In this document: in pieces, positions 759 to 49,195 of the stretch
How positions within the stretch are numbered: the stretch's first letter is position 1
Layout: each line of letters starts with the position of its first letter
Source: Acanthopleura granulata
Taxonomy: Eukaryota; Mollusca; Polyplacophora; Chitonida; Chitonidae
DNA: 64,000 nt
Direction of reading: 5' to 3'
Assembly (NCBI GenBank): GCA_016165875.1
Contig: JABBOT010000012.1
Location: forward strand, 14,573,168-14,637,167
The notes under the pieces: model-generated
Seen by the model: the letters and a program-made list of their open reading frames with translations, nothing else
Database searches by the model: none
Told to the model about the DNA's origin: nothing
Position numbers and translations under genes: made by a program

Positions 759-17672
<16,914 letters not shown>

Positions 17673-17729
17673 TGTGATTAACTGTCAATGCGGAAAACTA
17701 CGAAAACAAAATATTTGTATGCCTTTGAC

Positions 17730-23352: not shown

Positions 23353-26300
23353 TCACTGGCAAACGCTTCCAACAGGACCACGTCCCAGCATGGCCTTGGC
23401 TGAGGATGGTTGAAGCCTGCAGCCACCCAGGTTGTTGGGCAGGGCGTACTCTCCCAAATCCACCGGGCTGAAATTAAAGACAAATATCTATTATATTTAC
23501 TTCATTTATTTGACTGGTATTAAATCAGCCAAGAATATATCAATTGCATGATGGCGGTTACCACTGTGGTAGGAAGAAACCGGGCCGAGCCCGGGGCAAA
23601 ATATGTATTATATGAAACGCACATAAAAATTTGAGAAAAATATCCGTAATCGTATTATGCAAGGAATTATTTTTTTTTATTTAATTGTTGTTTGACGCCA
23701 TACTCAACAAATTGTTCACTTACAGGATGCAAAGCAGCCATTTTTATGGGTGGACGAAAGTGTCCGGGTAAAACCTCTGCCTGCTGGCAAGCCACTGACG
23801 AACCTTCCTACCTGAGACATCTACATATGAACGCCACTTTGATGGACTGAGATGTGTTTTTCAAATGTAATGTCCTGCAGATGATGGTATGAACATAATC
23901 CTGAGGGGGAATATGGTAAGAAGTACACGAATATATAGTTTAGGCCTGTGTGGTTTTGTTGTCCATCTTGTTGAGACTGAAAGAGGGAAACTTGCCAGCA
24001 GGTACGCAGGTTAAAAGTCACAAAACGTATGTTACCAATTATCAAGGAAATCCACAATGATGTCACCTGTATAAGACTACACTCACTTATTAGATGATTA
24101 CTGCGGTAAGGACACTACAAACTAACACATCGTCTTTAACTCTAGCCCTTTAGAAGTTTCTGTGAAGCGTTCCACAAGGTATAATAAAATAACGGTGTTT
24201 GATCTCCGGATTCTGCTCATTTCGTTCAATCTCATTATGTCTTTATTACGGCACTGTCAGACGTGACCAATACTAAAGCTTATACGTGTCATCATAACAG
24301 TCAGAATACAATTTTAGCAGACGTACCACAGAAACATGGGCATAATGCATTGGTCATACCAGAGTTGGTTTTGACTGAGATGCAAGTGTGGATTTTTTAA
24401 CAGCGTAGTGGTGTCAATTACAATACTATAATAACACTATTTTTCTTTGAACTGTTGGTAGAAACGCTGGCTTCGGTCACTCAGGTCGTTGATTAAAACC
24501 CTATACGGCCGCAGCACTTTGTGCAGGATTTGGGGAACTTAATTGCAGTTCAATGCTTTGAAGAGTCCCGTTGGATTAAATACCCTTGTCATGTCGGAAA
24601 TCATGAAAAATACAGCTACCCACTGGAGTTGCATCATAATCCCACAAAACTACTGATAGTCTTTGGGATTCCATGTCACTATTTTTAACCGTTTAGCTCA
24701 CCTGTTATCTACCAATAAATGAGCAATGCTTCCTTCATAAAGATACGCGTTTCCAGTTGCGTCTTCCGGTGTTCCACGTATCGCTATGGTTACGGGACCG
24801 TCTGCTTTACGTTGTCCCCAAAACCCCCCGGAATAATCGAAGGATTTCTCGTCGCTATCGTCCACCCGGACATAAACCCTGGTAAAAAAAGAACAACAAA
24901 ACACAATGGTACCTGTGTCTCACAATTTTCAGAAGTAGCCTTAGGTTGTTTTTTTTTTTGCTTTAAGAATAACAAGGCATTCAAACATGAAGTTGTAAAT
25001 AAGTTTCCAGCAAGGCGATTGTTGCGTCGGATTTGTGATTATCGATTTATAAGGTCCTTTTCTTGGGTGTGCGACCGATGAATCGAAATCCGAAATTCGA
25101 ATCTATGAATGAATGTACCTCTGATTAAGTAAAATTCTCTACATAAACATTTTAGCGAACATAACGAACAGCATCATAGCATACATTACATCTTGGATGG
25201 CCACGAGTCAAGTGTAATTTCATTACATAATGAGCAAGGCTTTCGACAACAATACAACATAAATTGGAAGGATTCTCATCAGCATCAAGCGTCATTAAGT
25301 CATTAAACCAGCTATCACTTACGAAGGAACACTATATTATTTAGGAACTTACTACCAAATGCCAATAGAAATAAAGTAAAGAGGCAAAGAATTATCGAGA
25401 TTTAAATTCGTTGAAAGAGATAACAAATTAATACCGCGAATTTCGAGTCTGGGGCAACGCGTGATGCAATGACAAACGTATAAATACAAAGTACATAATT
25501 ATTAAAAGCAACAATGGTAGGGGACACTGTCAAGTCCCTTATGAGATCTCACTTTTCGTCTTCTTCGTCTGTTCTGAGCACGACGTGATGCCAACCGTCG
25601 TCTGGTTTCATTTTAATGAGCTCATCGGCAGATTCCACTTCTTCTGTTAGCTCGGCACCCGTTTTTGTCAAACGCATATATAGGTCAATTCTCTGAAAGT
25701 ATGGAATGAAAACAAAAGGAGTTGTAAATGTTGATGTTTTACACGACATTTTTCTTACATCAGATGTTGTTTATGATTGCAGTATCTGGGCAATTTGTCA
25801 TCACAACTGCAGAACGAATGCTTATAGACAAAAGAATACAAAGCAGTGTGCAACTTGAAGAAACAAACCTCGATGTTATATAGCACGTTGTTAATTTGTT
25901 CTGTTGTTAAGCGGGGTGCAGCACGATGTTAGAATTGAATACACTGGGGTTAACAAAGTAAAATAATTCTACGGCCAATAATGTTGCTGTTAGCACTGAC
26001 ATAATTATCAAGCACCACTGTAGACAAAGCACAGGTAGATATAGATGGACACAGAAAATCAACACAACAGGGGATAGATGGATTCGGTAAAGAGATGAGA
26101 TGTGGCGACCTAACATACGGTTGCCCTTTATAGAACTGAAAAGAAACTAGGAAGCAAAGGTCAAGTTTTCTCTTCGTTGGGGAAGGTGGTGCTGGGGGCG
26201 GGGTGGAGGGTGGGGAGCTTGAGCTGGGTAAGAGTGTGAGATAAGTGACGTCAACAGTTGGGGATTCCTAGAATACAGTCTAAGCTGATACCCAGCGTTT

Positions 26301-28110
26301 ACTGAGTGGAATCATATCATTTTATTGACATTATTCCTTTTGTCATATGAGCAAAGCCACTAAGGACTTGTCAAGCCAACAGAGACTTTTCAAGACAACA
26401 GGAACTTGAGTTGGCCTCAGGTGGATGATATTTACCAGAAATGTTCTCGCAATGACCTTGACACACCGTACCCTAAAGGTCACCGAAATCTCATCAGCTT
26501 TTCGCGGGCTCCTTATGTGACTGCTTTAAAGCAGGATTAGTATCAACAAGAATCCTTGTCCACAAGACCATTATCTATGGCGGCTGCCAAAGGTAAGTTC
26601 GGTCACACAGAAAATATTCCGATTGCAGAGTTTAATCATTTGGCCTATATACTGATTCAGAATGAATGAATGATTATGGCTCAACGTTACTTCGGCACAT
26701 TCATTTAAAACAATATGATATCCACCTTTTAGTGAGTATCTTTTCTTTGTTGCCACGATATAGATGAAAAATTGCTGATGTGGCTTTACATACCATAATC
26801 ATTAATTCATTCAACGTTTCTGCGTGACGTAAACTTTTTGTTCGACATGAGCACGGACCGCACACGGAACTCTGGACATCTGGATGTCAAGTGACTTCGG
26901 CGTTTATCAATAAAATGATGAATAACATATTAATTAAAAGTTGGTAATCGAAAAACCTATCATCGTACAGTAATAAAAAGACTAAGTCAAAATGAAATCT
27001 TCGTCTTGTGAAGTCATACTCTTTCTGCACTGCGTGAAACTTATCACAGGATTTTGAAATACAATTACTTCCATTTCAAAATGGAGGTTTAGTCAAATTT
27101 TGAAAGGGTTGTGGATATAGAGGGAGAAAAGCTAGGGTTTATTGAATTTTGGGGTTGAGGGATATCTGCACACACTGACCACTGCAGACTGTCCGCCGGA
27201 CCGAATCCGACCCGCCGCTGCCTAAAGAGAACAAATAACATGCGGGCAAAAGTGCCGGTTATTTAACACGATGAACAAGACAAGCAGTTAATATGAACAT
27301 GTGTCCTACATTTTACAATGAAACAAAACACATCGATCACTTAACACAAATGCAATTCTATAGAATTGAGGCGGGAGACATTTTACAGTTCACACAAAAG
27401 CCATTCTAGAATTTATACAGAAAACATTCACAAACGGAAAACAAAGAATATTCTGCAGCCAATGTAAAGATAATTCTATACAGTTAATTCAAAGGAACAT
27501 CTACACAATTAATATGAAAAGATATCACAAGAAGACACATACGATAGACAGATCTGATGTTAATGAGCATTACGTTTTAAAACATAGTCACTAATCGTGT
27601 CGTGCATTTCTGATATTCAGAGAGAAAGATGGTCCAGAGATTAAACTCCTATACATCCTGTAGTAAATCCGACGAATTCTGGCTTTGTTAGATTAGGAAA
27701 TATCAGGATTCAGGAATGGTGTTATATTGGCGAAAGGTATATGGTTAAAAGGATTAACAACTGTTTCATCTGAGTGCAATTATAGCTTGAACGCGGCAGC
27801 CATGTTAGAACTCGCTTCTGGCCTAGGCAGAAAATACAACTATATTCTTACTACGAGCAGTTTCCAATTACGCCACAAGAACGAGCATGTGAGTAAGTAG
27901 CTTTAGGAAACTCTGCTTGTGATAATAATTAGAGCTATCTTAATTGCCATAACATAGTATATTGCTACTCACCAGCCCCCTTTTGTAATGGAACAGGTAA
28001 CCTTTGAACTTGTCCGCTTTGAACATAAAGCTGACGGAACGACCCACTTCATATTCGGGTAAGATAATTGCCTTACTCTTTTGGGTGAAGCTGACGCAGT
28101 TAGACACCAT
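23353..28110 (-). CDS. Laminin G domain 3 (LG3) and C-terminus
   Basis: Four exons: 27973-28110 (NCVSFTQKSKAIILPEYEVG, SFMFKADKFKGYLFHYKRGL), 25553-25692 (RIDLYMRLTKTG, DDGWHHVVLRTDEEDEK), 24702-24878 (VYVRVDDSDEKSFDYSGGFW, NAYLYEGSIAHLLVDN) and 23353-23467 (PVDLGEYALPNNLGGCRLQP, ending GSVCQ then TGA). The last Cys pair fits the LG end disulfide. The protein stops here, so LG4 and LG5 of a standard laminin alpha chain are absent. The 3' UTR runs into a 90-bp triplicated repeat and then a SINE. An ATTAAA on the minus strand (22799-22804) is the only poly(A)-signal candidate I noticed, and it is weak. Confidence 0.9.
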
Positions 28111-31100
28111 CTGTAACACGTACAATGGAAGCTAATGAAATTATGGAATTGGTAAATGTCCGGGGTCAATGATAAATATAAGGAAATAACTCAAGTTTAT
28201 GGGTGGAAGATATCAGGGTAAACGCTCTTTAAAGCACGAATCGAGAACCTTTCCCGCCTAAAGTAACTCTAAGCTATGTATAGTCTTTTGTTCATTCATA
28301 CCTTTGCAATGACGTTTTGTTGAAAACCTGGCAACGCATCACCCATGCATTGAAACAGAACAATAGTCAATACAGCTTGGACCCGGGTCCCCATTGCACG
28401 GGAAAAGGTAACCCACAGTCCTCATACAACCGCGGACAGACTTGGGACCCCTTCCGCAATCTTTCTCATGACTCTCTTTGGAACAGGGGAGTTTTATAAG
28501 TTCGAACTCTTTTATCGCTGGAGATAAAAGAAGCCCTCTTGTAACCTGTGACTTGTCAGAAATGTTAGAAAATAGTTTTGATAGCATTTACCATAACACG
28601 GATGTCTGAAAAAATTTTACAAAATTTATTTAGAGTTGACTAACGACAGAGAAAATTAAGGAACTTTACGTTTGTGAGCTTAAGAAGTTTGTGCTGGAAG
28701 GAGATGTCATATTTCCGTCCGAACCAGGGCGAGACAGAGGATCGGTAATTTAATGTTAACAAAGGGTACCGAACATTTTTGACTGGTCACATGAAACAGC
28801 ATGACATTTTTTACCTCCAACGATAAAAGAGTTCGAAGTAGAAGCTCCCCTATTAATGAGAAACGTTGAGAAGAAATGCATTCTGAAGATTGATTTGAGA
28901 AAGTGACCCCTGACTTATTAATTCTCAGCGGGATAATGAATAATCACAAATCATTCTTTAGGACTTCGCAAAGCAACCAATCAACGGAACGACTAAGTGG
29001 GTATCACGATCACCTGGCCTATACATGAGCCGCATTGCAGAATTGAGATAATTTTTTGTGTAGTATCGTAGGATAATAGCATTCTCTGACAGCACAAAAT
29101 CTAAAACATTAATAGTGCATTATTAAAGCAGATTCCCAGAAGTCAAAGAATGCCAATGACCATGTAAGATGCATCTTTATCCATCAATATGAGTGTTGCT
29201 GTGGTCATATTATGCAAACGTTTAAAATTTCACGAAGGCACCTTGTTGAACCAGTGTTTATGTAACACTTGAGATGCATGCACATACCGACTGTGAGCAA
29301 CTACCCGTGCTGACTCCTCGAGCGGCGTTCGAGTCAGATATGAATAACTCCTGCTGGTTGATCTCTAGTTTCCTCACACAACCAGATAAAGAACTGTGGG
29401 GAAAAAATGGAGAAGAACTGATCAAAACAAGTTGAAACAAAGGATTTCTAAGTACATGCATGGATGAGGCAAGGTTTCAAGTTGATTTGAGGTGTGACAA
29501 AATGAATGTATACACTGAATTTTATCAAAATGAGACCATATTTCAAGAAATCATTGCAAGAAACCAATGACCATTTAAAATAAAGGAGATTGTTAAATAT
29601 GCTAAACGTATGTGCGGGTCTGGGCAATTTTCGGTCTTTCAGTACAGCGGGAAACATATCTACTTTTTATTTCACTTACCTCATATTTCTTTTTAAGTAT
29701 GTTTGTGCCTCTGTGGATACCCCACCGACCAGTAAATTATTGAGTCGATAATTCGTTAAAAAATCGGCACTATTTTCTGACGTAAATGTTTCCGGTTTGC
29801 CGTCAATTGCTGCTATCAATTTGTTATCAACCAACGAAATCTGTTTAAACGGAAAGTATCATTTTGTTACAAAATCATGGAGTGTATATAAACCCCCAGG
29901 ATAGCAACATAATCTCAAAATATATACATGTATGTGCTGCAGTCTCCAGATGTTCTTCATTCCCACCAAGGGAATGGCCTACTGACGGCCGTCATAACAA
30001 CGCTGAAACTAAACAATTTACGACTAACTCCAGGATCTGGGCGATTTGACTTAACGCAAGTTACTAAAACAAATTACACCAAACCTGCATAATTTACTGA
30101 GGACAAGTAACGCAAAAATCGACCAAGTAATGTGGACAAGCCACGCCAGGGTATTTCTAGCCACTTCATCGATGTGGTTAACACAACGAGAAATGTTTGA
30201 AAATTGAGTTTGAGACAAATTTTGTACTGATTTTTCTGATACATTGTCGACAAAAACATATAGAATTTCCTGATTTGTTCAAATTTAGTTTCTAAAAAGA
30301 AATTGTCCTAGAAAAACCCCTGCAACGCCGTTGCTCATCAGGTACTGCACATCCAAAGCGTCATTTTCAACACTGATGTATATCATCTGTCAACCCTAGA
30401 AAATAACCTCGTACATTGGTACACGTATATGACCCGTCAACATTGATATATGGCCCTAAATACTGATACATCACCTGTCAATACAAGTATATCATGGCAT
30501 GCATCTAAGTTATGCGGTAGAATTTGATATTACCATTAAATTATAGAACTTCCCGTTTGAATAAGAAGTTTCTACCGTCCTTTGCGACGTGGTACTTCCC
30601 CTTGATGTCATGGAAACCACTACAATTCCTTTCTCTATCGAAGCTATCAGAAACACATCCTGTAGAAGAAACATACCAAACAGTTTAACAATCTAGCACT
30701 GGTAATGGCTTCCTTTGAAATTTTAATAAAAATGTCATGATCGAACGGAGATGCAGCTACGTAATCAGTTTTGTAAAGCACATTTGGACTCACATTTCTA
30801 GAAGACTTAAGATGCACCTTAAGTGTAACACAGGTGTGTGTTTTTTTTGACCACTGAGGAATGAAAGAATATATCCACAGACGGGGGAGTGATGTAACTA
30901 CATTCTGTCCAGTTTGACCAACGATTCGAGGTGGATATTACATTGCTACTCAGAGAAGCCGCAAATATAACACTCCTGTATAACAATATGGCACAAGGAA
31001 ACAATTCAACGGACACGGAAACAATGAAAAAACATGACTGCATGTTATCCGAACCTTCTGAAGATATCCTAAAAGAAATAACAATGTGTTCCTCTGTAAT

Positions 31101-34100
31101 GTTCGAAAGAACACATTTATAGAGCTGATTCCTCTTCTGGGGTAAATGGAGGAGGGGAAGGATACAAAACCGGAACCGTCAAATATCAAGGAGGATTGGG
31201 AAACACTGAAACAGATCAAGTCATCAATACTGCAGTGCGATGTAATCCATGGTGACAAGCGACGTCCGTGTAAAGTGAGACATGAAATGGGAGATAACTG
31301 TAATGCGAAATGCTGATTTCGCCAACATTTTATTTCTACATTATATACGATATTATAATTGAAATACGTATAAATGGGTAAATGGCGGCTCAGTCTAACA
31401 AATTTCTGAGTCAAATGCACGATAAGAGTGATGTGAAATATTATACATATGTTAAGTTTGTACAGATGATAAACTTTTTATTGCTTTACTGTTTATTGAC
31501 ACCAGAGTGATGAAATTAAGCTGAAATTCTATAATTAATCTATCAAACATTTGCTGAAAATGCCTTTCGCTTGTTTTTCACGCATGGTAACAACAACTTA
31601 AAACACCTAATTATTATTATTAATTATTATTAATGTTTCTTTTTCAGTGCCCGGTGGGGTGCACCTACCATCCACTTGAACACAAGGGTGGATGTAAACC
31701 TGTCACATCCGGTCTGTAGACGTTGATCTCTCTCCCGCCAAACCGGACGTCGCTAACACAGCCCGTAAAAAAGTTTTTGCCCTGGAAAAAAGCACAAACC
31801 AATTAAACATACCATTCTTTACATTTATTTATTTGATTATTGATTAAACACAACGCGCAATAGTTTTTTACCCACATACGATGATGCTCAGTTTTACGGG
31901 TGGAGTAAACTACAATACCTCGGATAAAACCACAGACCTGTACTGAGGTACTGACAAACTTAGCTACATGTGACGTACGCCATAATGATGGAAATGAACA
32001 CAGTCTTCAACGAGCGCAAATCTGTGCACACGGCCACAGCAGTGCCGTCCAGTGTTTATTGTGAGGGCGTTACAAATCCAACGTTTTGCTCTACATGTAC
32101 CTCTAATCGGAAGTATGTGGGAGCAACTGAACTGAGCTCCTGTATTTTCTAAACCACTGTGGCATTGTTTCTCGAAGAACATCGATGGGTTACATAAAAA
32201 TATACATTTCATAAATTCCCCGGTTAATAAAATGAAAAACAACCGGTCAATTCAGTTGTACTGATTTTCTTTATATGTTACAACTTACTGCAAATGAGTA
32301 ATAAAAAAAATTCCCCGGTTAATAAAATGAGAAACAACCGGTCAATTCAGTTGTACTGATTTTCTTTATATGTTACAACTTACTGCAAATGAGTAATAAA
32401 AAATACTTTAAAATAGCGACATCTACCACTAATAAGAGAAATTAATATGTAATAGGTTTACAACAGTAAAATGTTATGTTTGCTCGAAAAATAAACGCAC
32501 TACCTTTTTATTTTATAAAAGGACAGTTATGAACCAACATTCTTGCACAGAGACATACCTGTTTTTTCCCTGGTTTCCCACCAATGAAAACGGATGATGG
32601 CAAGACTTGGACCGGATTGGCCTGATTTAACACAATTGCTGATTGGCTACCGTTTGCCTTGTCTGCCTTCAATGAGAGCACCGACAGTTTGTAGCGCAGA
32701 CCGTACCTTCAAAGAAAACAAAGAATCGCAATCTACTACCTCATATGCAACAATCTGACAGGGAACACATAATAATTTCCGCAAAATGACAAAAGTCGTA
32801 GACGTACACCTATTTATTTGATTGGTGTTTTAGTCAATAATATTTCATTTATACCACGGCGGCCAGCATTATGGTGGGAGGAAACCGGGCCGAGCTCTGC
32901 GGAAACCCACAATCATTCCCTGTCAAATCTCCTCAAGTAAGGCCGGAGAGGAAGCCAGCCAAAACTGAATCTGCATTCACAGCAATCGTATTGGTAAGAG
33001 ACACCTGGGTGGTTGTGTAGCGTTAGAACCCTGCATCAGGCATACATAAACAGCAAGAACATTACATTTTATATCGTTTTTTCGATTAAGACTTGTGTTG
33101 GGTAGTTTGCACAACAATAAACGTAATGTCCCTTTCCAATACGTCATATCTGAATATAATCCTGTCAGTAAACGATCAAAATTTGCGGACTTTACCAAAA
33201 GTCAACGGAATATTAACAAAGTAATATTTGTCAAGTTATTTATTTCCACAAACGGATGTTTACCTGAACTGGACTGCATGTGAAAAGTGTATGAAATTTA
33301 AGAATTTAACCGAATCTAATCAAGAAGTGTATACTGTATTATTCTGTCTTAGACTTGTGAAAGTACGTCGGGTGTGCATCTTTGTTAGCAGCGGAGAGAA
33401 ATATGTGTGGAGAAATTAGCCAGAAATTGTTCCATTTTGCTTTAATTCCATTAGGGGCCTCCGTGGCTCAGCGCGATATCGCAGCACAATGATCTGAAGC
33501 CTCCCACCAGCGCGGTCGCTGTGAGTTCAAGACCAGCTCATGCTGGCTTCCTCTCCGGCCGTAGGTGGGAAGGTCAGGCAGCAACCTGTGGATGGTCGTG
33601 GGATTCCCCCGGGCTCTGCCCGGTTTCCTCCCACCATAATACTGGCCACCGTCGTATAAGTGAAATATTCTTGAGTACGGCGTAAAAAAACACCAATCAA
33701 ATAAATCAAAACATTAATTCCATTAATTTTTTTCAAAATATATAAAAAAGTAAGAGGCTAATAGCGACATTTTGCTGTTACCATCCGGCGTTCACAAACC
33801 AACTTTAGCTTTTTGGACTAATAGATTCTTAGTTTATACCGGTTTGAAACGAATGATTGGGGCGACCACACAGCAAAGGTCACACTTACCTATTGACGAA
33901 GACCTTGTACCAGTGATCGCTTTTCAGATCGGCAGGGTTGGTCACCGAGTCAATCTCCTTACCGTCAGGCCCGATTACCGACATGGATAGTAAGCCTTCT
34001 TTGAGCGCTATGATCAGAGAGTGCTGGAATCAAAGAACTTGACTTTATTCTATACATCCTGAAAGATGTTTGACCAACAGACAATGCGTTTTTAAGCTTG

Positions 34101-37100
34101 GAGAACTGGACATACACATGCACTAACTGGGCAAATCATGCTATGCCACAATCTTCAGATAAGACCACACATAATTACTTATGATGTTATACGTATAATA
34201 AAACCGGGTTGCTCGAGGAAGACAAATTTCCTTCAACGGACGTCATAAACACTCAAACAGGCCGCACGTTTCCAACGCACCCTTGGGAAGTGGATGGTGT
34301 TCATTGCTGGCATGCATTTCTCGATGTCAATTCAATGTTCAATTCCACATGAAATCCACTGAGGTTGTATTAGCAATCCTCAGCACTGATGTCTCCCTCG
34401 TGTATAACCATTGCTTTGCACATAAATATTGCTTTTCCACACCATGTGATCTGACTTTTGATACAGACACTTCATCTATTACATGCATATATTGGACGCA
34501 AAGCCGCCAAAATATCCCCAAACACCTACAACTGTCTTGTGCAACAAAGGACAATTTAAAGACGGTGACTTAGGGAGCTAGACCTAAACGTATGTCTTTA
34601 CAACTCATGAAGAAGATTCAAGAGGTCCCTTCCTAATATAAGTCGGGCTAAAGTTTCTCTGAACTTTCATAATCCTTTAGCCTGAAAGTAGTTTGTTTGC
34701 GATCCGCTATCAAGCTGGTAATGGAACGCTGAAAGAATTCTGGAACTGACAGGTTAATAAATTAATATGACACAGCATTATCTCTACTGTCTTTGTAGAT
34801 GGCCACTGGTTGTATATATATATATATATGGCAGTGGAATAAGAGAAGCCCGCTGGTGTACAAGTAACGACCTAATAGTGTGCTATTCGTGAACTAGTTG
34901 TGAACTAGAGGCTACTTCGTGGTGCACTATTCGTGGAGTACTACTCGTGAAGTTTTTAGAGGTGAACTAGTTGCGATCTCGTGATCTGCCTCTGATAAGC
35001 TCTCAGAGTATGACTGGTTCTGCATTTGCTCGACCGGTTGGAAAATGATACGCTTCGTTTACAGACTTACAGAATTGTTCCCTTGCAACATGGCCAACAC
35101 TCCCTCAGCTGAAGCTCGTTTGACGCAAAACTCAAAAGAGGACACATGGGACTTGGTCGTCTCGTGTTTGAGCGGGGCTTCCAGGTAGTTACCTCCGCTC
35201 AGAGATACTGGCAGCTGAGGACATTAAACATGCAGAAAACGTCTAAGTAAAAACATCCCAGCCCACAGAAATGGCCCTCCTGTGCACTGCTTTCATGTTA
35301 TTGTGTACATGTATTAAATGAGATGACAACATAGCATTTTGAGTAACTCAAGATCGGTGGTGTCTAGTATATTGCATTTAACATCACTGCAATTTGTTTA
35401 CCTTATTCTTCTTAAGCCATGGTGCTAGGTGGGGAAGGTGTGGGGGGGAGGGGGGGTAAAGTTGGTACTTCTTTAACACTCATATGAACATTTAGAACAA
35501 AACAATATATGACGTAAACTGAAAAGAGGCCGGGTTTTCGGGTTGCCACTTATCACACTGTCGTCGCTGCTCTGCTTTTACTCTCTATGCTGTACAGTTA
35601 TATTATGAAATATAGCTATCCAACTTCCCCATCTGACAGCTTTACTTGGGCTGTTTAAAGACAACACTATGCTTACACTACAGCATGGACACAGTGTAGT
35701 AACAAGTGATGGGCAAATTTTCTAGGCCATTTTATACCAAACTGTCTGTTTTTACCTTTTTGCTAAATGAAGTATCTCAACACATGTGATGTATTCATCC
35801 ACATATTGCTTACGTTAATAGCGGAGGTGATGGCTTTAAATCTCTGTATGTTTTCCCGCAGTTGTGTCAAGTTTGTGCCAATAATGTTCCGTAGTTGGGT
35901 TGTTTGAACACAAGGATCGGGTTGGACCAGTTTCAGTTCCCGGATCTTCTTCATGTTGCTAGTAGCCTCGCCGACTTAGAAACGAAAGTAAAGTTTTAAT
36001 ACAATTAAAAGTCAAAACAGATTTGATTTCATTTGACTGGTGTTTCATTCCACACTTAGGAATGCTGCAGTGACACAACGGTGGTCATGCATAGGGAGAG
36101 ATAGATAATACATAGACATATACCACGTGAGTTAAACTTGTGTGAATGAATGAAAGAAAGAACGCATGAATCAAAGATAATAGTTTCCAACTGAAAATCA
36201 ACAGTGGGGAAGGGGTTTTTGGATGTCCATTGAGCGCGTCTTAGACAACCGAGGATGGCGTAGCAGAATCAAACTTGAATACGATTTCGAAGTTCAAAGA
36301 GTTTAGTTTAAAATGGATATATACTTTTTCCCACGCAGTGGAGATTCGGTCCGAAGTGGACTTGATCATTGTTGAACTGTTGCTCTGCAGGAGTAATACG
36401 TTATCAGTTTGCCCAAAAAACACCATCAAACATGACGAAATGAACAATATAGACTACATAGCTTTGACCCGAATGACCTGTGACGAGAAAGGTTCCCCAT
36501 TGAAAGCATGGGGTATCTCTTCCCTTGCAATGGCGACTCGGGTCCAAGCCCGACTTGTGACAGATAAACGCTCAGGAATGAACAACAGTCTACAGTCATT
36601 TAGGCGGGACAGGTACCTCACTCGATATCCAACTAAGTAAGCTGGCTTTGTTGAATACGCTTAAGCAAGTTGTCTTTTTTTTTTTCTTGCAATAGGCAAC
36701 TTTTCCTGATGCAGTTACCTAATTGTAAGACTTGAGGGAAGCCTCCTTGACCTCCCGCTCCCGTCACTTTACCCATCACTCGCTCCACCGTGCCTTGTAC
36801 TTGTTGGACTTTGCTCTGAATTGTCTTGTTAAAAGCTCGCACGTTTTTCACGATAATGGCCACCCTGTCATGGATATCCTCATACTTAGGCCTGTCCTCA
36901 CCCCAGGCTGCTAACAGGGTCACGCCGTCCTGGTAGGCATTGTCAACTCTTCCCACTGCTCCGCCCAGTCTGCCAGATGATGCACGAAGTACTGCAAGTC
37001 GAAGTAACGCAGGGAAACATAAAAATATAAATGACGGCTTAACAAATTCAAATATCTCAAGAAGGATATTGAACGGTTAAAGCCAGTAAAAGAAGGTCTA

Positions 37101-40100
37101 ATAAAGAAAGAGTGAAAGATGGGAAGGTTTGTTACAGAATTGCAATAACAAACATTATGATCATACCAATTTAAAGATTCCTTTCATAGGGTCAAATTCA
37201 TTGTACCAATGCACGATCACCTCAACTCCTCGATAAGGAATAAACTCTAACCACACAGAGTATGATGAATACGTATTTCTACTGTATGACGAATACGTGT
37301 TTCTCCTGTAAGGCACAGTTCCATTCTATCCGTACCAGACTCTGACTGCAACATCCAATGAAAAAGCAAGACTGGCTGGTAAGCCACAATTCATGGTCGC
37401 TTGGTTCAGCGAGCAGTATCATTATTTCGATTAAGAAATCCTGGGTTTCACAAGCCGAAGTGACATTTTAATCCCAGTTGTTTTGTACCGAGTCAGGGGT
37501 ATGCAGAATCGACACTGATTAGCTTATAGCTGAGATGGGTTTTCCTGTGCTTATAAGGCTGTAACATTGAATAAATACACAGAATTTCGCTAGGCCTAGG
37601 CTTAGCTTGCACATGCCTGCGTCTCATACGATTCTGCACCGATTCAAAAACCAAATCTGCCAAACCATCTGATTTGTAGACAATTCCGAATGCCTTCAGA
37701 CGGAAACCCGTACGGTACTGTTTCACTGATCCAATCTCTTATCCTTCGTGTCTTCAGTTAACAGAGGGGTCCTTCGTGGCTCAGTTGGTTATCGCGATAG
37801 GGCAGTGTAATGATCCAGAAGTCTCCCACCAATACGATCGATGTGATTTCAAGTCGAGCTCATGCTGGCTTCCTCTCCGACCGTACGTGGGAAGGTTTGC
37901 CAGCAACCTGCGGATGGCCGTTTGTTTACCACGGGCTCTGTCAGGTTTCCTCCCATCGTAATGCTGACCGCCGTCGTAGAAGTGAAACATTCTTGAGTAC
38001 GGCATAAAACACAAAACAATTATTCAGTCAATGAGTTAAAAGACGTGTCAAACGGCAGGTGAACAGATTAGTTTCATACATCGGACATAAAGTTAGATTC
38101 CAACTCACCTGCCAGGCGACTGGCGATGTTCAAAGATTCCCTGTATAACTTCTCACTGCGTTCTCGGAGCTTTCCTGTGAGTGCTGTTAATCTATTACCT
38201 GCGGATAGACGGACTATCATAAACACAGACATGCATCTATGCACAAATGTAAACACACAATGGAAACCTTCAGCGAGATTCAGGATTATCAATCTCAGGA
38301 TTATCATTTAACTCATTTACATCATCATAAGCCAACCCAAGGTCTTAAGATATAATGTTATCAAAAGGCAGCTTATTTTGCGTCTGTGATCTAGAATTCT
38401 TCGCTAAGCGCGACGCGCGACAGGAGAGTAATCAATAAAAAAAAGTATCTTACTGTAAAGGAATCAATGTATGTCGGCCTGTGTATCATTTGATTTTCCT
38501 CGACAACTGTTCATATTACGGATTTGCCGGTTGCATTTCTGAACACTGAATTTATTCATGCATTGTTGAGTTTTTGAAAACTTTCTTATTGCGTATGTAA
38601 AACTTATGTAATAATGACGTCACTGGTTTATAATAAGAAGACAGACTTCCATCATCTTGCATTTCATACAAGGCAATCTCCAAAGGCAAGTTCACCGCAT
38701 AGTTAATATAGTCGGGTATGTATAACGTAAGAAATAAATGTGGTTCATCACGAAACTTTGAACTTTTTGTGTATAGCTTACTCAGATGGTAGCATAACTA
38801 TAAAATTATATGCACATTGTACTTATGAATAAAATTGGAATCCAGAAATTTTTAATTTAGGGTCTGCGAAGGCCATATAGCTCTGATTACCAAAGGCAGA
38901 TGTCTTTCTTTCACGAGCGGGGTCTGTCCTTGTGTCGACAAACACGAAGTCATCTTCGCCATTCTCCACTCCATCCCCGCTGGACAGTAGCCCACCATCG
39001 AGGTCGGCCCCACCCAGGCCGCCGCTCCCACTTTCCTCCACTTCATCGCAGTCCTCTCCGTCATCACCCGACCCCACTTCGGACCGACAGTCACGTGTCC
39101 CGGAAGGCGGGCCCATGCCCACTTTCTGCCTTAATTTCTCTAGAGCTATTTCGATTTTCTGCACAGGGTAAAAATTCAAGGCGCCTTTGATCGTATAGGT
39201 ATACCAAATGCATGGTTTAATGGATCTGGTGTATCATTTGCATAAACCTATAATTTTCACCTATTCGACAAACATCCCAAGTCCAAATACTTTATAGGTG
39301 GCATCTTAGATGATCACCTCAAAACATTTTCGAGTGAGATTAAGTTACTTATTCAATTTGCCTTAAATTCTTTTCGCCTCAGAAAAGATGTTTCAATGAG
39401 CGGTTCGAATGTAGGACGATGTGCTATTGGAAAAGTGTGGAAAAATACTTTATGACTTTTATTTGAAAGTGAAAGCTTTGTTTCGTGGAAATGCTTACAG
39501 CCAATACATGTATAGTCAAACTAATTTTCTATATACAATCTCTATCACAACAATCACGAAGACGCAAAGGGGCGTGGTTTCATGGGAGCCTTATTTAGTT
39601 CATATTATGAGCATTTAAAAAATCATTTTCCTTCTTCCATGTTTGATGTTGCACTTGGTGCTCACCTGGGGGATTTCCTTTAGGTATCTTTCTACTTCTT
39701 GCGTGGTTCTGTCTGATGGTCGTGTACCAGGGGGGGCACCCCCACTGTGACCCCCTGTCTGGCCACGTTTCCGGTATTCTATCAACGCTTTCAGGTGTCT
39801 TAGCAGAGGGTAAACTTGTCTGCGTAAAAGGGGGAAACACGTGATGAGTTTGGAATGACTTTGTATGTGCAAAGTTTGTAGTGAGTCCACAACACTTCCG
39901 AACAGAAAAGTGAAACGTTCAGTTTCCATACGAGTCATCTATAGGAGTTGAATTCAAACAACACACCAAAGACTTACAAAAGTGCGTTGCAGTTTTTTAC
40001 CAGCTCTAACTTAAATTTGATAATACCACAGAGAATGGTGGTTCAGCTCTTGGAAGTTTACATTTGACAAATACACGATCAAACAGTTGGTAAGACATTT

Positions 40101-43100: not shown

Positions 43101-46100
43101 ATCCGTTCCACTCATTATTAAGAGCATCAAATTATCTAAAATGCCACAAAGCCGTTGTCAATGACTTATTTGACTTATAGCTCCACAATACTAGAAAATG
43201 GATACGCCCACGACCGAATGTAAAACAATCAGTACTTACTCTTAAGTAGGTAATTTTCCGCTGTGCCATGTTGTACTGGATCACATTCTCCACTCTTCTT
43301 ATTGTCCGGTTGCTATAGTAACTTAACTCTCGCAGTTTGTACACTGCCTGCATTTTCATCAGCCTCGCTTTCATACCCATCTTCTGCGATTTCAGCTCAC
43401 TACAACGTCTTGAAAACGTTTTGAAGAGAAAGAGAAAGAGAATCATTTAACGTAACATGGGAGAAACGGACATTTTCAAAAATATCTTTACAGCTGGAAT
43501 GTGGTAATAGTTTTCAGACTCTAAAATTCACTTCTGCAGATCGCAACGTTCAGATTGTGTGAAATACTGACAATATAATTAATTAAAGGTGAACTGTCCC
43601 GGTTCTGTTTTTCATTTTACTTATCTGAATAATGTAACTGTGATATAACAAAAATGGTGGAAACAAAAACATGCCGAGTATTTTTACTTGTTCATAACAG
43701 AAATATATTTAATTTTAAGAAAAATCGTGCATTGCTTGTTTGCCCTCGAATGGCGCTAGAGTGTCAAATATACGTGACGTATTGTGACATTTCCGCTTTC
43801 CAAACACTAATTTAAGTCTGATTAAAACACATTTCCTCAAAATGGCTAGAGCCTAATTTAGAGCACTAATTCGATTCAAAATGGTCCATTTTCATTGCAT
43901 GGAGGCATGGATGGATAGGTATGAAAGCTAATCCCATCGTAATTCGGTGAATGATTAACACAGTTGAATGCTGCACAAAACGGCATATCGCCAGTGTGAC
44001 GTCATGCTTTACTGGGACATCAAGGGCAGATAAGAGTGTAGAGGATACCAGACTTCACGAAGACCCGCCGGTCCTGAAAAAATATATTTTTTCAAAACAT
44101 CGGGCGATTTTATTTCCTTAAATCGCTTTGTCTCCATGGTTCAGATACCTCTAGGATACACTGCGCCATTTTTTTGCGAAAAAATTAATCAAGCGGGACA
44201 GTAAATCATTCATCGAAATATTTCTCAAAAGACTTTCTAACAGCAGTATCCTCCGGCCGTACGTGGTAAAGTCCGCCAGCGACCTGCGGTTGGTCGTGGC
44301 CTTTCTCCCGGCTCTGCCCTGTGTGAACCCACCATAATCCTAGCCGCCGTCGTATACGTGAAATATTCTTGAATACAGCTTAAAACACTAATCAAATAAA
44401 TACATAAATAAATATCAGTACTATGTGGCATATGACATGAAAAACCACTCCATGGGTAGTGACACCAGAGCAGTGACAACACTGTGATAGTTAATGTGCC
44501 ACACGTAATCAGTTACATCGGCATTTCTGTCTAGCTACCTCAGTTTGGGTTTTAGTCTAACTGTTCATGCAAATGGTTAAATAGTAGCAACAATGTTTAA
44601 TCAGAATTACGTAAAAAAATACACTGACGTTGTTATTACACGTCCCTGATCTAGAATTTCTCCAACTGCTTTCATCACATTTAATAAACAATTACTTGAA
44701 ACCAATGAAAAGGGAATCCAATCTAGGAGAGGGTTTTTTTTAAAGGTAGAGAAAACATAAAAATGACATAAAGTTCAGATGAAAGAATGCGTAAAATTAG
44801 TTGTAAAATGTGGTCAATATTTTCTCGATTTTTCTTTAAGGAGAAAAACACATGAAAGTAAGTTTCATATAGTGGCTATTTGGGATCACCCTTTGATATA
44901 TATATAATCTTTGTGTAATAACGTCCAAAATGAGGATGTAACACATGTTTAATAAATATTTTTGCACTAGAATTTGTCCTTTTGAGCTAACAAATGTATT
45001 CAACCTGGATTAGAACAATATTTATATTTTTAAAATCTTCAAAAAATTCAGGCTAAATGCATATGTTTTGATATAAACAACAAATTTACATTCAAATAAT
45101 TTTATTAGACATGCATCACATCCTTTTAAGAACACTGTTGTGCAACAACGGTAAATACCAAAAGATGGCCCCAAATACTTAACGTACAAAAACAATTTCA
45201 AATAACCCTTTTCTCACTTCCTTAAGTTTTGACGCTCTGTTATCTGGGGAGAAGTCAATGAACTTAACTTAAACAGGATAATTCTCATAAATATACAAAT
45301 TAGGTTTACCTCTTCTGTCTTTTGGCTTTGTTCAGCATATACAAGGCAGAGTTGTATTCCTGTTCGGCACTGCGTCGCGCAGCCCGGAAGTCCCTCCGTT
45401 TGACAGGCTGTTCTATTTTTCTTCTCCTGGTGGATGGATTGATGAGATGTTGCTCATGCGCTCTCATGTAAACATGTCGCACCAACCGAGACATGTCCAG
45501 TATGATACCTGGCATAAAACACACATGATCATTGGTATAAGAAAGTATGCAGAATATTCATGCAAAGGAAAGCAGTCAACAGTTTTCAATGATATCGACA
45601 AGACGCAATGTATTTCTTTCGAGCAATCTCTCTCCCATCGTCGTAAATTGTTATCTCTGCCTTGTTTGCTGAATTTAATACTTGCATTGCTCATTTGTTA
45701 ATCAACTCTCATTGCCCCGATCGAATTTTGTTACCTTAGCATATATAGGACCAAACAGTCCTCGGGGTCTTACCATAAACTTCGTCGTTGGTATTGACCA
45801 CGGCATGAAGTCCCTCTCTCACCCCCATCATGATGTCGTAACGTGTCGTGTTAAATAGGCTGTCGTACTTGTTATACGCCTGAAAAACAATAGATGTATT
45901 GTCGATTTTCTACAAAATAAGTTGATCTCATAAGTCGCTCTAAAAGAACTGATGGTAATGGAAGAAACTCCGACCAATCAGAAATCCGATGTGAATGTAT
46001 AAGTGCGAAAACAACAACAACGACAAAAAAAAACAACAACAAAGAAATAACCCAAAAAAAAAAAACAGCCATATCGTCGCGTGGATTATTCTTATAGAAG

Positions 46101-49100
46101 ACATGCAGACACACTCCTCACTCGCATTACGAGGACAAACACAGAAGTACATTCCGATCTGGAACGCTCAAATGATTCAAGATGTAGTTTACGCCGATTT
46201 AATTCACAAGTCACCTCCCAGGAATGAAAGACTGGAATTTTTATATCCAGGAAATCCATACCGTAACAATATATCACCGACAATACATAATGGTACAAAG
46301 AAGAAAGTGACACAGCAACGACAAGAACCAAGTGAAAGACTGATAGTTCGTTGAATAATATGACTGTGAATTATCGCAGTATAATTTGGCCATGTAATTG
46401 CCTAAAGAACGCCACTCACTACGTTGACTTTACTCCGGAGGGCTTTCAAGACGGATTCCAGAGAGATCATGATCCTGTCGGAAAGCTGAGCGACCTTTGA
46501 CCTCAGCAGGCGGGCTTGATACTGAAACACAAGGGCAGAACATTAAACAAGACCACCTCCAATTAATGACTGAATATTAAGGCATGTGCGCACAAATTTG
46601 GATGGGAAAGCATCGAATTTGTAGGGAAAGATAAAGGTGCAGTAGTGACAGCGGGAACTACATTCAAACGGGCAACCATGAATGGCGAGGGAAAAACGTC
46701 TGACTCTGAGGCTGTGTAAGCACGTCAGTAATAGAGTCACCTACAGCCATGGACTATTCCAAACTGTCAGTCAAGAACATTCATTTGACCAATCATGATC
46801 AGCAGTGTAGCAAACAGGCCAATAGGAAGTCCCACACATTGGCTACATACATTAATTTTTTCAATGGCGTCAAGGCGTCGCAGTTGGAATGGAATGAAAA
46901 GAATAACGCTTGTCACGAGAAGGGTGATGAGACTGGGCGGGAAGGATCCGTCTACAATTTGTATGACACCAGGAACTCAGAAAGTGTGCATATGTGCTGA
47001 CAGAAAACAATATGATTCGCAATTGTGTATTTGTGTGACTTGTAGACGGACATCGTTACTTACCGCTCTGTTCCTATCTCGCTCCTTCTGCCGCCTCCAC
47101 TCCTGCGCTCTATTTCTGCTAGGCCATCTCCTTCGTGCATCCTGTTTTTTTGGGCTTTTCTCTGCCGAACCACTACCGCCAAACTTATTCCTCGACACCT
47201 TCTTGTGCCCCTTAGGCTCTACTTTCGTTGGCTTTGTCGCGGTAAGGAAAGATTTATTTTTACCTTTCTTTTCTGTCGGCTGTGTAGGCCTTTCCTGGGG
47301 CTGTTTCGGCTTCTTTTTCAGCTTTTCTCCTCTGTGTTCTGAAGGACTAACCTTTTCTTCAGTAGGTTCCGGTGTGCTCTCTTTGGTCTTTGTATGCACC
47401 CTCCTCGATCCCGTCTCCAACTTAATTTTTTTAGTTCTATCGATGGATTTAGAAATCTCGACTTTTACAGGAATTTTTTTATCCGCCGTTTTAGAAATTG
47501 CTACAGTGAGAGTTTTCGCCGTCGTCGGTGCTACCGTTGATGACGTTTTCTCACGATAGCCTTTCTTGCGTCGATTTCCCTTTCTTTCCTTACTGTCTTT
47601 CCGCCTGCCTTTTTTGTCTTTGGACTTTTCGGAGACATTCCTATGCGGTCTTTGGGGATTTGTGGTCAAAGCAAACGGTGTAATGGGCTTTGGACTGCTC
47701 TCAAACGATTCTCTCACAGATTCTTCCGGGATATCTTCTCGGGAGACATTTGGTTTGGGTCTTTTCCTTTCTTTCCGTGGACGCGGTCGTCTGTTTCCTC
47801 TTTCTCTTTCAGACTCTTCTTCGCCATTTTCTCCTCTGCGCCTGCCAGAGGGAGGCCGTCTGCGGCGGTTTGGGAGATAGGGCCGTCTAGGGACGTAACG
47901 ACCAATTGGACGCCGAGGTCTGGGTATATACCTGTCGAAATAGCCGTCATAGTAGCCATTATAATACCTGTCGTACACACGCGGCCCTCGCCATGTCTGG
48001 TTACGGCCCCTGCCTCTGGCTACCCCACGTCGTGGAGGATATCTTACCAGGGGTGGGGGATACCTCCTCCGACCAACCATGGGTCGAATGTCGTAATCGT
48101 AATCGTAGTCGTAATCTTCATAGTAATCGTAATTCTCTGCATAATCACCGTCACCGTAGTCATATTGGGATTTATTGCTCCCACGCAGTCGTCTGCTGGA
48201 GTTTTCTACCATCCGTGTGTCATCTCTTCCATGATTTCTATTACCACGTGACTTCCCTCTGCTTTTCGCGGCTTTTCGATTCTTCTTTCCACTTCGGCCA
48301 GCAGGTGACACAGGGCGTCTGTCGGATGAAAGAAGCTCGTCGCTGCGATTGCGAGACTTTTTCCGCTTTCTCGTCTTAGAAATGTGGCTTTTCTTAGTGC
48401 CCTTCTTAGTTTCTTCGTTTTCGTTCTCGTGAATTTTAGACACTTTAGTTTTAGCAGAGGCAATCATGTCATTCTGCTGACCAATAATGTTTGTTAGCTT
48501 CTGCTTACGACTTTTGCGTCTAGACTTACTGGTCTTTTTCTTTCCTGACGAGGCAACTTCAACGTTATCTTTCTTCTTTTCGTCCTCCTGATTGTTGGAA
48601 AACTTGTCATTATTGTGCTTTGAGGATCTAATTGTTGATTCTTGATTTTCTCTGCTCCTTTGCTTTTTCTGTTTTCCACGATGATTACGTTTGTAAGGTT
48701 TCTGCCGCTTGGGCTTATCTCCGCGTGTATTTCTTGACGCTGGGTGTGACGGATATTTACTCAGCTTTTTCTCAGGGGATAGTGAGCTTGTGTTGTCATG
48801 GTGATCTTTTGAGGGTTCTATCACGTGATGGCTGGAATTTTTTAACAGTTGAGAAGTTTTCTTTGCAGATCCCCCATTATATAGTTTATTTCGAGATTTG
48901 GCAGTTTTATGCTTCCCTGACTTTTTAGTCGAGTCTTTAGCACTGATTAAAGAGGAAGGCGTCGATATCGATGCATTTGGCACGTTTTCATTTTCATCAT
49001 CGTTATTGTCCGTTTCCTCTTTGGAACTTCCCCAAAAGGAGAAAAACTTGTCTATGAGAGAGTCACTTTTCGATTTCTTTTTACTCTTGTGTTTCTTTTT

Positions 49101-49195
49101 CTTTGTCCTGGACTTGTGTCTCTTGTGAGTCTTCTTTCTTCCTGATACCTCCCCACTACTTCTGGAGGCTGGTTTGGCACATTTCTCATCTTTCC
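23353..49195 (-). CDS. Laminin-G-domain matrix protein with a large polybasic N-terminal region (24 exons; 5' end not found)
   Basis: Exons in transcript order: 47064-49195, 46420-46521, 45774-45879, 45310-45508, 43240-43408, 42646-42741, 41049-41233, 39666-39819, 38891-39158, 38109-38198, 36719-36991, 35814-35974, 35071-35214, 33890-34023, 32559-32706, 31669-31781, 31055-31205, 30534-30659, 29680-29840, 29288-29393, 27973-28110, 25553-25692, 24702-24878, 23353-23467. All junction phases agree, giving 1,861 residues and a TGA stop at 23353-23355. Order: ~711 residues Lys/Arg/Ser-rich, ~601 residues helical and laminin-long-arm-like, three LG domains (~180 residues each). The first exon found starts in phase 1 after a good acceptor (ttttacag), so at least one upstream exon, presumably with the signal peptide, is missing. 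The LG part is secure. The laminin-alpha origin of the middle is inferred from length, position and helical pattern. I know no named gene with this architecture. Confidence 0.85.
23504..23605 (-). mobile_element. MetaSINE-type fragment beside the last laminin-G exon
   Basis: CATTTATTTGACTGGTATTA, then GGTAGGAAGAAACCGGGCCG. It lies 40 bp upstream (in transcript sense) of the acceptor of exon 23353-23467. Confidence 0.65.
23672..23815 (-). mobile_element. Old SINE-like fragment of a related but distinct family
   Basis: A TTTATTTAATTG-type tail is followed by GTTCACTTACAGGATGCAAA, ATTTTTATGGGTGGACGAAA and CCTGCTGGCAAGCCACTGAC. A relative of the same type seems to lie at 31826-31965 (TTTATTTATTTGATTATTGA, TTTTACGGGTGGAGTAAACT, CCTCGGATAAAACCACAGAC). 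The family is not identified. Confidence 0.45.
29288..31205 (-). CDS. Laminin G domain 2 (LG2)
   Basis: Four exons: 31055-31205, 30534-30659, 29680-29840, 29288-29393. It begins SQSSLIFDGSGFVSFPSS, then SINVFFRTLQRNTLLFLLGY, DVFLIASIEKGIVVVSM, YSNGKFYNLMISLVDNKLIA, NNLLVGGVSTEAQ and LSGCVRKLEINQQELFISD, closing GVSTGSCSQS. This is the most typical LG of the three: the usual D-Y/F-L-x-x-x-I-E-x-G and DGK(W/F) positions are present. The donor after 31055 reads GTTCGG, weaker than its neighbours, but it is the only phase-compatible site I found. Confidence 0.93.
31669..35214 (-). CDS. Laminin G domain 1 (LG1)
   Basis: Four exons: 35071-35214, 33890-34023, 32559-32706, 31669-31781. The domain opens LPVSLSGGNYLEAPLKHE, continues SFEFCVKRASAEGVLAML and HSLIIALKEGLLSMSVIGPD, then DHWYKVFVNRYGLRYKLSVL, and VFIGGKPGKKQGKNFFTGCV. 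It ends SDVRFGGREINVY ... LCSSGC, the usual LG closing strand and disulfide. Phases are 0/2/0/2. LG domains are ~180-residue beta-sandwiches; in laminin alpha chains they bind integrins, dystroglycan or heparin. The intron between 33890 and 32706 contains a SINE on each strand (33454-33707 and 32809-32965). Confidence 0.93.
31826..31965 (-). mobile_element. Old SINE-like fragment, relative of the copy at 23672
   Basis: It shares the tail and the 'ACGGGTGGAGTAAAC ... CTCGGATAAAACCACAGACC' type body. It lies in the intron upstream of exon 31669-31781. Confidence 0.4.
32216..32405. repeat. Recent 95-bp tandem duplication
   Basis: TTCCCCGGTTAATAAAATGA starts at 32216 and again at 32311. The two copies are almost identical through CAAATGAGTAATAAAAAA. 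Intronic, in the LG1 region. Confidence 0.92.
32809..32965 (-). mobile_element. MetaSINE-type fragment in the LG1 region
   Basis: It reads TTTATTTGATTGGTGTTTTA, ATTATGGTGGGAGGAAACCG, then GGCCGGAGAGGAAGCCAGCC. The tRNA head is lost. Confidence 0.83.
33454..33707 (+). mobile_element. MetaSINE-type element in the LG1 region
   Basis: It runs from GGGGCCTCCGTGGCTCAGCG to CACCAATCAAATAAAT. A short deletion removes part of the A-box arm. It is antisense to the gene, in the intron between exons 33890-34023 and 32559-32706. Confidence 0.87.
35814..46521 (-). CDS. Long-arm-like helical region (11 exons, ~601 residues) of the laminin-G gene
   Basis: Exons 46420-46521 to 35814-35974 give a Cys-poor, charged, mostly helical sequence directly before LG1. 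Examples are RLLRSKVAQLSDRIMISLES, DFRAARRSAEQEYNSALYML, NRLTALTGKLRERSEKLYRE, IHDRVAIIVKNVRAFNKTIQ and IGTNLTQLRENIQRFKAITS. Its length fits laminin alpha domains II+I (about 570-600 residues), which form the trimeric coiled-coil arm just before LG1. Sequence match to any one laminin is weak by eye, so trimer formation is inference. One exon (38891-39158) carries a Gly/Ser/Asp/Glu-rich insert. Exons 43240-43408 and 41049-41233 start with the same 11 bases. Introns hold SINEs (36020, 37766, 44240), the ~157-bp repeats at 40440-40980 and a MITE-like element at 43580-44210. Confidence 0.72.
37766..38022 (+). mobile_element. MetaSINE-type element, diverged, in the long-arm region
   Basis: The head CCTTCGTGGCTCAGTTGG and the body to cttgagtacggcataaaaca are clear. 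The tail is degraded (acaaaacaattattc), so the copy looks old. Confidence 0.82.
40440..40980 (+). repeat. Array of ~157-bp repeats with GACCTTGA-type blocks
   Basis: The phrase GTAAGT(T/C)(T/C)GG(T/C)(G/C)AACTTG recurs near 40462, 40566, 40721 and, as GGTTCGGTGAACATCGG, near 40877. The last two intervals are ~156 bp; the first is shortened. Each unit also has a GACCTTGA/AAGGTCAAG block and TAAACCGTTC(A/T)AGAGA(C/T)AGTGCG. It ends in CAGACAGACGGACGGACGCC, a signature of an abundant dispersed molluscan repeat. It lies in a laminin-G intron. Confidence 0.65.
43580..44210. mobile_element. MITE-like element with inverted ends in a laminin-G intron
   Basis: ACTGTCCCG at 43593-43601 matches the reverse complement of CGGGACAGT at 44194-44202, with AATTAA near each end. 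The ~620 bp between has no ORF and differs in texture from its surroundings. A target-site duplication was not convincingly resolved, so the call is tentative. Confidence 0.35.
44240..44414 (+). mobile_element. 5'-truncated MetaSINE-type element
   Basis: Only the body from TCCTCCGGCCGTACGTGG to the AATAAATACATAAATAAAT tail remains; the tRNA head is missing. It lies just after the MITE-like element ending near 44210. Confidence 0.8.
47064..49195 (-). CDS. Single 2.1-kb exon: Lys/Arg-rich low-complexity region of the laminin-G gene
   Basis: One exon of 2,132 bp (2 nt plus 710 codons) is open throughout. It starts KDEKCAKPASRSSGE and has runs such as KKKKHKSKKKSKS and SRRKSRKQK. A Tyr-Asp block (nt ~48090-48170, residues ~341-368) is followed by a Tyr/Pro/Arg block (nt ~47850-48085) with RYPPPLVRYPPRRG and PRRPIGRYVPRRP. 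Then come Pro/Arg, Lys/Ser/Thr and Pro/Glu/Thr-rich stretches, ending ERDRNRA before donor GTAAGT at 47063. I see no folded domain, transmembrane segment or laminin LE cysteine pattern; there is essentially one Cys, near the start. Many dibasic and RxxR sites could be proprotein cleavage points. A chromatin or splicing-type RS protein was considered, but the in-phase splice to laminin G domains argues for a secreted protein. Confidence 0.8.

Follow-up and report, generated by a model that had tools for sequence, protein, structure and literature searches.

The window, the whole stretch of 64,000 nucleotides of chiton DNA that was analysed (Acanthopleura granulata, contig 12), holds a laminin-alpha-like gene between XRCC6, upstream, and DDB1, downstream (Table 1). 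The gene is predicted as a chain of 24 exons on the minus strand, from 49195 to 23353, in a model that is partly hand-built. All 23 internal junctions are phase-consistent, and the chain codes, in order, for a 710-residue polybasic region, 601 heptad-periodic residues and three LG units, with a stop at 23353. The initial annotation had already joined 24 phase-matched exons over this interval, as does our model; the outer ends and the junction 47064/46521, the sole coordinates that can be compared given that no exon ends had been listed, agree. With a predicted first exon further upstream (see below), the full gene would comprise 25 exons and 1948 residues. Its introns are 265-2280 bases long, apart from the predicted first intron of 21 kb, whose far greater length counts against the model.

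The exons were taken from an automatic chain, from which 14 low-scoring or repeat rows were removed (49813, 49609, 44694, 44318, 42194, 33669, 30975, 29085, 28849, 27217, 26520, 23874, 23046 and 22088). Exon 31205 was added by hand and the ends 43408, 29288 and 23353 were moved, and a coil-like peptide near 45.7 kb (MQVLNSANKAEI...), which lacked an acceptor, was dropped. The 24-exon model was fixed before the canonical laminin alpha genes were retrieved. The exon chain scored 431, compared with 137 for the opposite strand, 139 for the reversed strand and 44-79 for five shuffles, a contrast biased in the model's favour, since the codon model used for scoring was seeded with by-eye exons from the same region. 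Within 1 kb after the stop at 23353 there is no AATAAA, and the only ATTAAA is at 22804. A 90-bp tandem repeat (2.8 copies, 23084-23336) starts about 16 bases past the stop, in the presumed 3′ UTR.

Six copies of a dispersed repeat, each about 197 bp long, also lie in the window (10448-10644, 22873-23069, 33496-33692, 37818-38014, 44194-44390 and 53178-53374). Five of them share 64-92% identity with the reference copy, and families D13 and D15 may be additional fragments of the repeat. Peptides like those of this repeat occur at other loci that we read, and imitate exons in the gene finder. Inside DDB1 (7582-9387, minus strand), an 82-bp unit is repeated in tandem about 22 times; 18 copies matched the pattern used. 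Each copy resembles the 3′ splice site of the next DDB1 exon together with its first bases, and the last copy continues into the real exon, so that the array presents many possible decoy acceptors ahead of one exon. No tRNA or known structured RNA was found in the window. On the upstream side, 80 kb beyond the window were added, and 144 kb were scanned in total. There, XRCC6 (Ku70) was recognised on the same strand from a single exon of 53 residues at about 90 kb (extended window coordinates; match 3e-14); the remaining XRCC6 exons, which we presume to lie between about 98 and 88 kb in the same coordinates, were assigned by position.

Table 1. Predicted features of the laminin-alpha-like gene and its downstream neighbour, in window coordinates.
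Feature	Position	Strand	Evidence and remarks
DDB1, downstream neighbour	759..17681	-	exon chain; PF10433; PDB DDB1 E about 1e-83 (157 joined residues); bounds the gene on its 3′ side
LG3-like unit and stop	23353..28110	-	exons 28110-27973, 25692-25553, 24878-24702, 23467-23353; weak by sequence; canonical LG3 exon phases
LG2	29288..31205	-	exons 31205-31055, 30659-30534, 29840-29680, 29393-29288; Laminin_G_2 54.1 bits
LG1	31669..35214	-	exons 35214-35071, 34023-33890, 32706-32559, 31781-31669; Laminin_G_2 46.4 bits
Coil, 11 exons, 601 residues	35814..46521	-	phases; heptad test; canonical contig-22 coil-exon phases in all 11
Coil exons	46521-46420, 45879-45774, 45508-45310, 43408-43240, 42741-42646, 41233-41049	-	phase-consistent model
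Coil exons, continued	39819-39666, 39158-38891, 38198-38109, 36991-36719, 35974-35814	-	phase-consistent model
Coil exon with acidic Gly-rich insertion	38891..39158	-	268 bases vs 97 and 94 in two canonical alpha genes
Polybasic exon, 2132 bases	47064..49195	-	phase 1 in, 0 out; acceptor score 8.1, donor score 5.5; codes for the 710-residue K/R/S-rich region

The polybasic exon

A Lys/Arg/Ser-rich exon of 2.1 kb, with 711 residues, had been described in the initial annotation, and it held up in shuffle and periodicity tests with 710. Its frame is open for 710 codons (800 residues from stop to stop, 49379-46977), whereas none of 500 dinucleotide shuffles had more than 202 open codons, and its three-base periodicity (χ² 65.7) lies far above the maximum of 18.6 in the same number of such shuffles. 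The exon is T-poor (16%), a composition that favours open frames, and its G+C content is nearly flat over the codon positions (0.449, 0.470 and 0.445), unlike that of the other 23 exons (0.520, 0.411 and 0.536). No second copy was found in a genome search, in which all three candidates were scored and the one match was the exon itself, and a search for phage relatives gave none.

The region starts with (G)KDEKCAKP and contains 15.9% Lys, 13.1% Arg and 11.5% Ser, with a net charge of +119 and one Cys. It includes 63 dibasic positions, 10 N-glycosylation sequons and, by the usual definitions of the heparin-type motifs, 11 XBBXBX and 4 XBBBXXBX matches, which are raw counts with no chance level for so basic a stretch set against them. 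Two Tyr-rich patches lie within it, one with Asp (DYDYDYDYD) and one with Arg; the former is encoded by a 6-base repeat (48091-48133), and we take it to be a possible tyrosine-sulphation site. The cationic segment is probably disordered.

The same genome contains two canonical laminin alpha genes, on contigs 4 and 22. Their coil-start exons are 149 and 152 bases long, enter in phase 1, leave in phase 0 and start with CDEGC or CDSC. The polybasic exon holds the place and the phases of this exon, and starts with KDEKC where the canonical exon has CDEGC. Because place, phases and start correspond, the simplest reading is that the polybasic exon is probably the coil-start exon, enlarged from some 150 bases to 2132; replacement of the coil-start exon is the alternative, the five-residue resemblance being weak.

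The basic region might steer carbonate or iron mineral rather than bind glycans, the whole being a mineral-matrix protein; the lysine-rich KRMPs of pearl oysters act on carbonate in this way. The host is a chiton, the exon has Tyr-rich patches, and, in the available excerpts of PMC4498902, the lysine-rich region of the KRMP proteins inhibits CaCO3 precipitation and their Gly/Tyr region binds chitin. The resemblance to the KRMPs is one of composition only, however, and we consider this reading rather unlikely. The excerpts of the chiton genome paper (PMC7850002) mention laminin once among matrix homologues.

Two separate genes would also account for the arrangement, if the polybasic exon closed an unrelated gene for a basic protein and a separate, short laminin-like gene started at or near 46521. 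The frame does run 28 codons beyond the donor to a stop at 46977, the exon is without a match elsewhere in the genome, and the 47064/46521 junction is a predicted splice. However, the donor is a consensus one (GCG/gtaagt, score 5.5) whose phase 0 suits the next exon, the phases of the polybasic exon are those of the canonical coil-start exon, and the laminin part would be left without any start that we could find here. Nothing was found that places the exon in another gene; between 46977 and 46522 there is no AATAAA or ATTAAA, a weak point, since the modelled stop at 23353 also lacks AATAAA. We regard two genes as improbable, and treat the polybasic exon as part of the laminin-alpha-like gene in what follows.

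Coil, LG units and gene structure

A laminin alpha chain has an alpha-helical coiled coil of about 570 residues directly before LG1, and a laminin-type coil of 601 residues precedes LG1 here, in keeping with the roughly 600 helical residues noted at the outset. Heptad periodicity (p<0.05, 28-residue windows) was found in 30/82 windows of the coil, compared with 5/98 in the polybasic part and 4/75 in the LG part. AlphaFold was run without an alignment on two of the 11 coil exons, 36991-36719 (mean pLDDT 73) and 41233-41049 (86), and modelled both as two long helices. No match to the Pfam laminin coil families (Laminin_I/Laminin_II) was found in the coil. This is no evidence against a laminin identity, because the canonical contig-22 coil of the same genome is likewise without a match. 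The inter-chain cysteines beside the coil start are not kept: about 705 residues separate KDEKC from the coil here, whereas the canonical CDEGC or CDSC stands at the coil start. Judged from this loss of the cysteine pair beside the coil, a laminin-like, disulphide-linked trimer with beta and gamma chains is doubtful.

Of the three LG domains that had been proposed, LG1 and LG2 are certain by Pfam, both being well above the Laminin_G_2 cut-off of 22.9 bits, and the third is seen by neither Pfam (E 0.13, below the cut-off) nor PDB searches. In an exon-by-exon Laminin_G_2 scan of the genome, 47 places were listed, none of them in the window; the cut-off was reached only by the spliced LG1 and LG2. 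A PDB phmmer search with the coil end and LG1-3 matched laminin alpha-2 LG1-3 (2wjs, 4.3e-18) and the alpha-1 mini-E8 fragment (5mc9, 1.2e-16), and LG2 matched 5mc9 with 4.9e-14. The mini-E8 alignment starts inside the last coil exon and spans the coil-LG1 junction (NLTQLRENIQRFK / NLSEIKLLISRAR). LG1 is closest to alpha-2 LG1 (z 11.3, compared with 4.2 for LG2 and 2.7 for LG3) and LG2 to alpha-2 LG2 (z 16.1, compared with 3.3 for LG1 and 10.4 for LG3), and both retain the columns that are invariant in the alignment with the alpha-1 and alpha-2 LG domains.

Two observations underlie the assignment of LG3, its intron phases and a weak alignment with alpha-2 LG3 (z 2.5, p 0.02; other alpha-2 LGs 1.6 and -0.6). 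Comparison with the piece of alpha-1 LG3 that was tried gave z 0.0, the PDB phmmer search returned no laminin among eight matches up to E 10, and the hhalign probability was 0.3 percent, compared with 0.2 for a non-LG control piece. In the alpha-2 LG3 alignment, Ser stands in place of the first LG cysteine (EGSIAHL) and the last one is retained (LGGC), so that only one of the two LG3 cysteines seems to remain. A disulphide between the two final cysteines of the chain (GGC...SVC) was considered and rejected, as the alpha-2 alignment puts EGSIAHL at the GC position; the hhalign register does so too, in an alignment that is itself not significant. The stop lies 21 residues beyond the last LG3 cysteine, where canonical chains start the LG3-LG4 linker. 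In the contig-22 alpha gene, two long open Ser/Thr/Pro-rich stretches (830 and 838 bases, at about 2148204-2149991) form a mucin-like LG3-LG4 linker.

The closest correspondence to canonical laminins is found in the gene structure. After the coil-start exon, the contig-22 alpha gene has 11 coil, four LG1, four LG2 and four LG3 exons, the same as here. Intron phases agree in order at 23 of 24 junctions, compared with a mean of 8.8 and a best of 19 in 200,000 shuffles; the lone mismatch lies inside LG2. The phase at the end of the contig-22 LG2 was inferred from the next exon, and the count without it is 22/23. The contig-22 exon rows were selected by eye from a chain printed only for scores above 0, and the rows left out include 2173885, 2173488, 2165612, 2165293, 2162234, 2161123, 2159202, 2156691, 2155459, 2154803, 2152433, 2151293 and 2151171; several of these are repeats, either tandem or dispersed. 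Fewer introns interrupt LG2 and part of the coil in the contig-4 alpha gene, which shares the phases of the last six coil exons (among which one 48-base row was dropped), the four LG1 exons and the first three LG3 exons.

Sequence similarity to the canonical chains is clear in LG1 (z 10.1) and LG2 (z 8.3) and marginal over the whole coil (z 2.1, p 0.047). LG3 showed no similarity to the canonical chains of the same genome (z 0.5 and -0.2); the canonical LG3 on contig 22 is a clear LG domain. Searched with the whole protein by tblastn, the canonical locus on contig 22 gave a match with E 0.79 and that on contig 4 gave none. The coil and LG3 thus no longer align convincingly with canonical chains. 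Because the phases match while these alignments and the tblastn search are nearly empty, it is the gene structure that identifies a laminin kinship which the sequence no longer shows. The proposal that the long arm and LG1-3 were kept and the short arm replaced by a cationic region is supported, most strongly by the 23/24 phases. The best tblastn match among the fetched loci, a weak one on contig 10 (20205001-20235000, E 0.005), was rejected as a laminin alpha gene; this locus carries LN, LE, fibronectin-type repeats and LG, and we take it to be usherin.

The strong divergence of the coil and LG3, together with the cysteine that LG3 seems to lack, could suggest a laminin alpha copy in decay. 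Against such a pseudogene, all 24 exons are open with splice sites in phase, the 710-codon exon is open and has a strong three-base periodicity, and LG1 and LG2 keep the invariant LG columns; we consider decay hardly probable.

The upstream region and the short arm

A candidate first exon was found at extended position 70805-70547 on the minus strand, 21 kb upstream of 49195 and outside the window. Its product is MKYFPAPLGLVSYGLLAFCWLGIAYS followed by another 60 residues, and its donor (GTAG/gtaagt, score 7.2) has the matching phase. Three ATG exons with a signal-like stretch, a donor score of at least 3 and the required phase were found between 49.2 and 88 kb, of which 70805-70547 was the best. 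When the 144 kb were scanned in four versions (minus, plus, reversed and complement), no other phase-1 candidate combined a donor score of 6 or more with a length of 200 bases or more. This signal-peptide-like exon, the signal peptide being judged from hydrophobicity alone, is likely to be the first exon of the gene. The predicted N-terminal region that includes it has a pI of 10.7 and a net charge of +122.

The initial annotation named LE or LN exons that splice in from further upstream as a finding that would refute it, and none was found as far as XRCC6. An LE-like cysteine pattern had no occurrence on either strand of the 144 kb, compared with nine on the coding strand of each canonical alpha locus, on contigs 4 and 22, and none of the 14 LN family matches in the genome is on contig 12. 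Eight upstream open frames, of 71 listed, gave one sub-threshold match in Pfam, and a Pfam search with the polybasic, helical and LG parts and the first exon gave no family above cut-off except LG. Additional LG exons before DDB1 were rejected after exon-chain and LG-profile scans; open frames found with the LG profile on contig 12 (144 kb) were the LG1-2 exons only, whereas contig 4 also gave LG4-5. With no LE-like pattern, no LN match and no LG frame beyond LG1-2 found here, the short arm and LG4-5 look absent rather than overlooked, in scans that covered LE, LN and LG. Other alpha genes, such as LAMA3, have alternative promoters and the search covered DNA alone, but with XRCC6 as the next same-strand gene upstream, recognised from the one exon of 53 residues that was tested, and these LE and LN counts, an ordinary laminin alpha gene with missed short-arm exons is very improbable.

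Proposed function and comparison with known systems

We consider it fairly probable that the gene is a remade laminin alpha paralogue, in which a cationic N-terminus holds the protein electrostatically in place of the lost LN and LG4 anchoring. According to the available excerpts of PMC6744579, laminins polymerise through the tips of their short arms, and integrin binding needs the coil end and LG1-3; the matriglycan site is on LG4, whose basic residues are important for heparin binding. The excerpts of PMC11260871 agree. A chain with only the coil and LG1-3 could present the cell-facing globe, but would lack polymerisation and the LG4 glycan site.

In the mechanism that we propose, the protein would be secreted by way of the signal-peptide-like first exon, its coil would still join beta and gamma chains, or itself, and the LG1-3 globe would face the cell, as in other laminins. 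With no LN domain, polymerisation as in full-length laminins would be impossible. The cationic N-terminus of about 770 residues might bind sulphated glycans or an acidic or mineralising matrix electrostatically, and so take over both the anchoring by LN and the heparin binding by LG4. More tentatively, a fourteen-fold or so growth of the coil-start exon, with loss of the short arm and LG4-5, may have converted a basement-membrane subunit that polymerises into an electrostatic linker from cells (through LG1-3) to an acidic or mineralising matrix that is possibly specific to chitons.

Laminins are usually seen as a near-fixed toolkit, with either a full alpha chain or a trimmed short arm. The initial annotation knew of no described family with this order of parts, and no description of a chain such as this was found in titles or abstracts of the open-access literature; homologues may exist under other names. 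If expressed as modelled, it would be an alpha chain in which the coil and LG3 have drifted past pairwise recognition with the exon phases unchanged, and in which a cationic segment seems to have replaced the lost anchoring parts. This makes it testable how a basement-membrane protein comes to serve in a new, perhaps mineralised, matrix, and indicates that gene structure can reveal laminin relatives that are only partly visible to domain searches.

Among mollusc matrix proteins, the KRMPs of Pinctada share basic and Tyr-rich regions with the present protein, a likeness of composition; the available excerpts of PMC4498902 name no coil or LG for them. The shell matrix proteins Pif and BMSP are, like this one, matrix proteins with an LG-like domain (PMC7747718, in excerpt), but the same excerpts give them VWA and chitin-binding domains of their own and describe no coil or tandem LG1-3. 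Membership of the Pif/BMSP family was rejected, as Pfam finds no VWA or chitin-binding domain here. Vertebrate alpha-4 and alpha-3A are similar in that they are without LN, and so are not expected to polymerise; LN is missing from them together with part or all of the LE repeats (PMC6744579), but the excerpts describe no long cationic replacement for them. The five LG domains found in all alpha chains, according to the excerpts of PMC11260871, compare with three here. Relative to the canonical laminin alpha chains, both those on contigs 4 and 22 and vertebrate alpha-1 and alpha-2, the predicted protein differs in that no LN or LE was found and LG4-5 are lacking, in the 2132-base polybasic coil-start exon, in the acidic insertion in the coil and in the diverged LG3; it shares with them the order of a coil followed by LG1-3, the exon phases and the sequences of LG1 and LG2.
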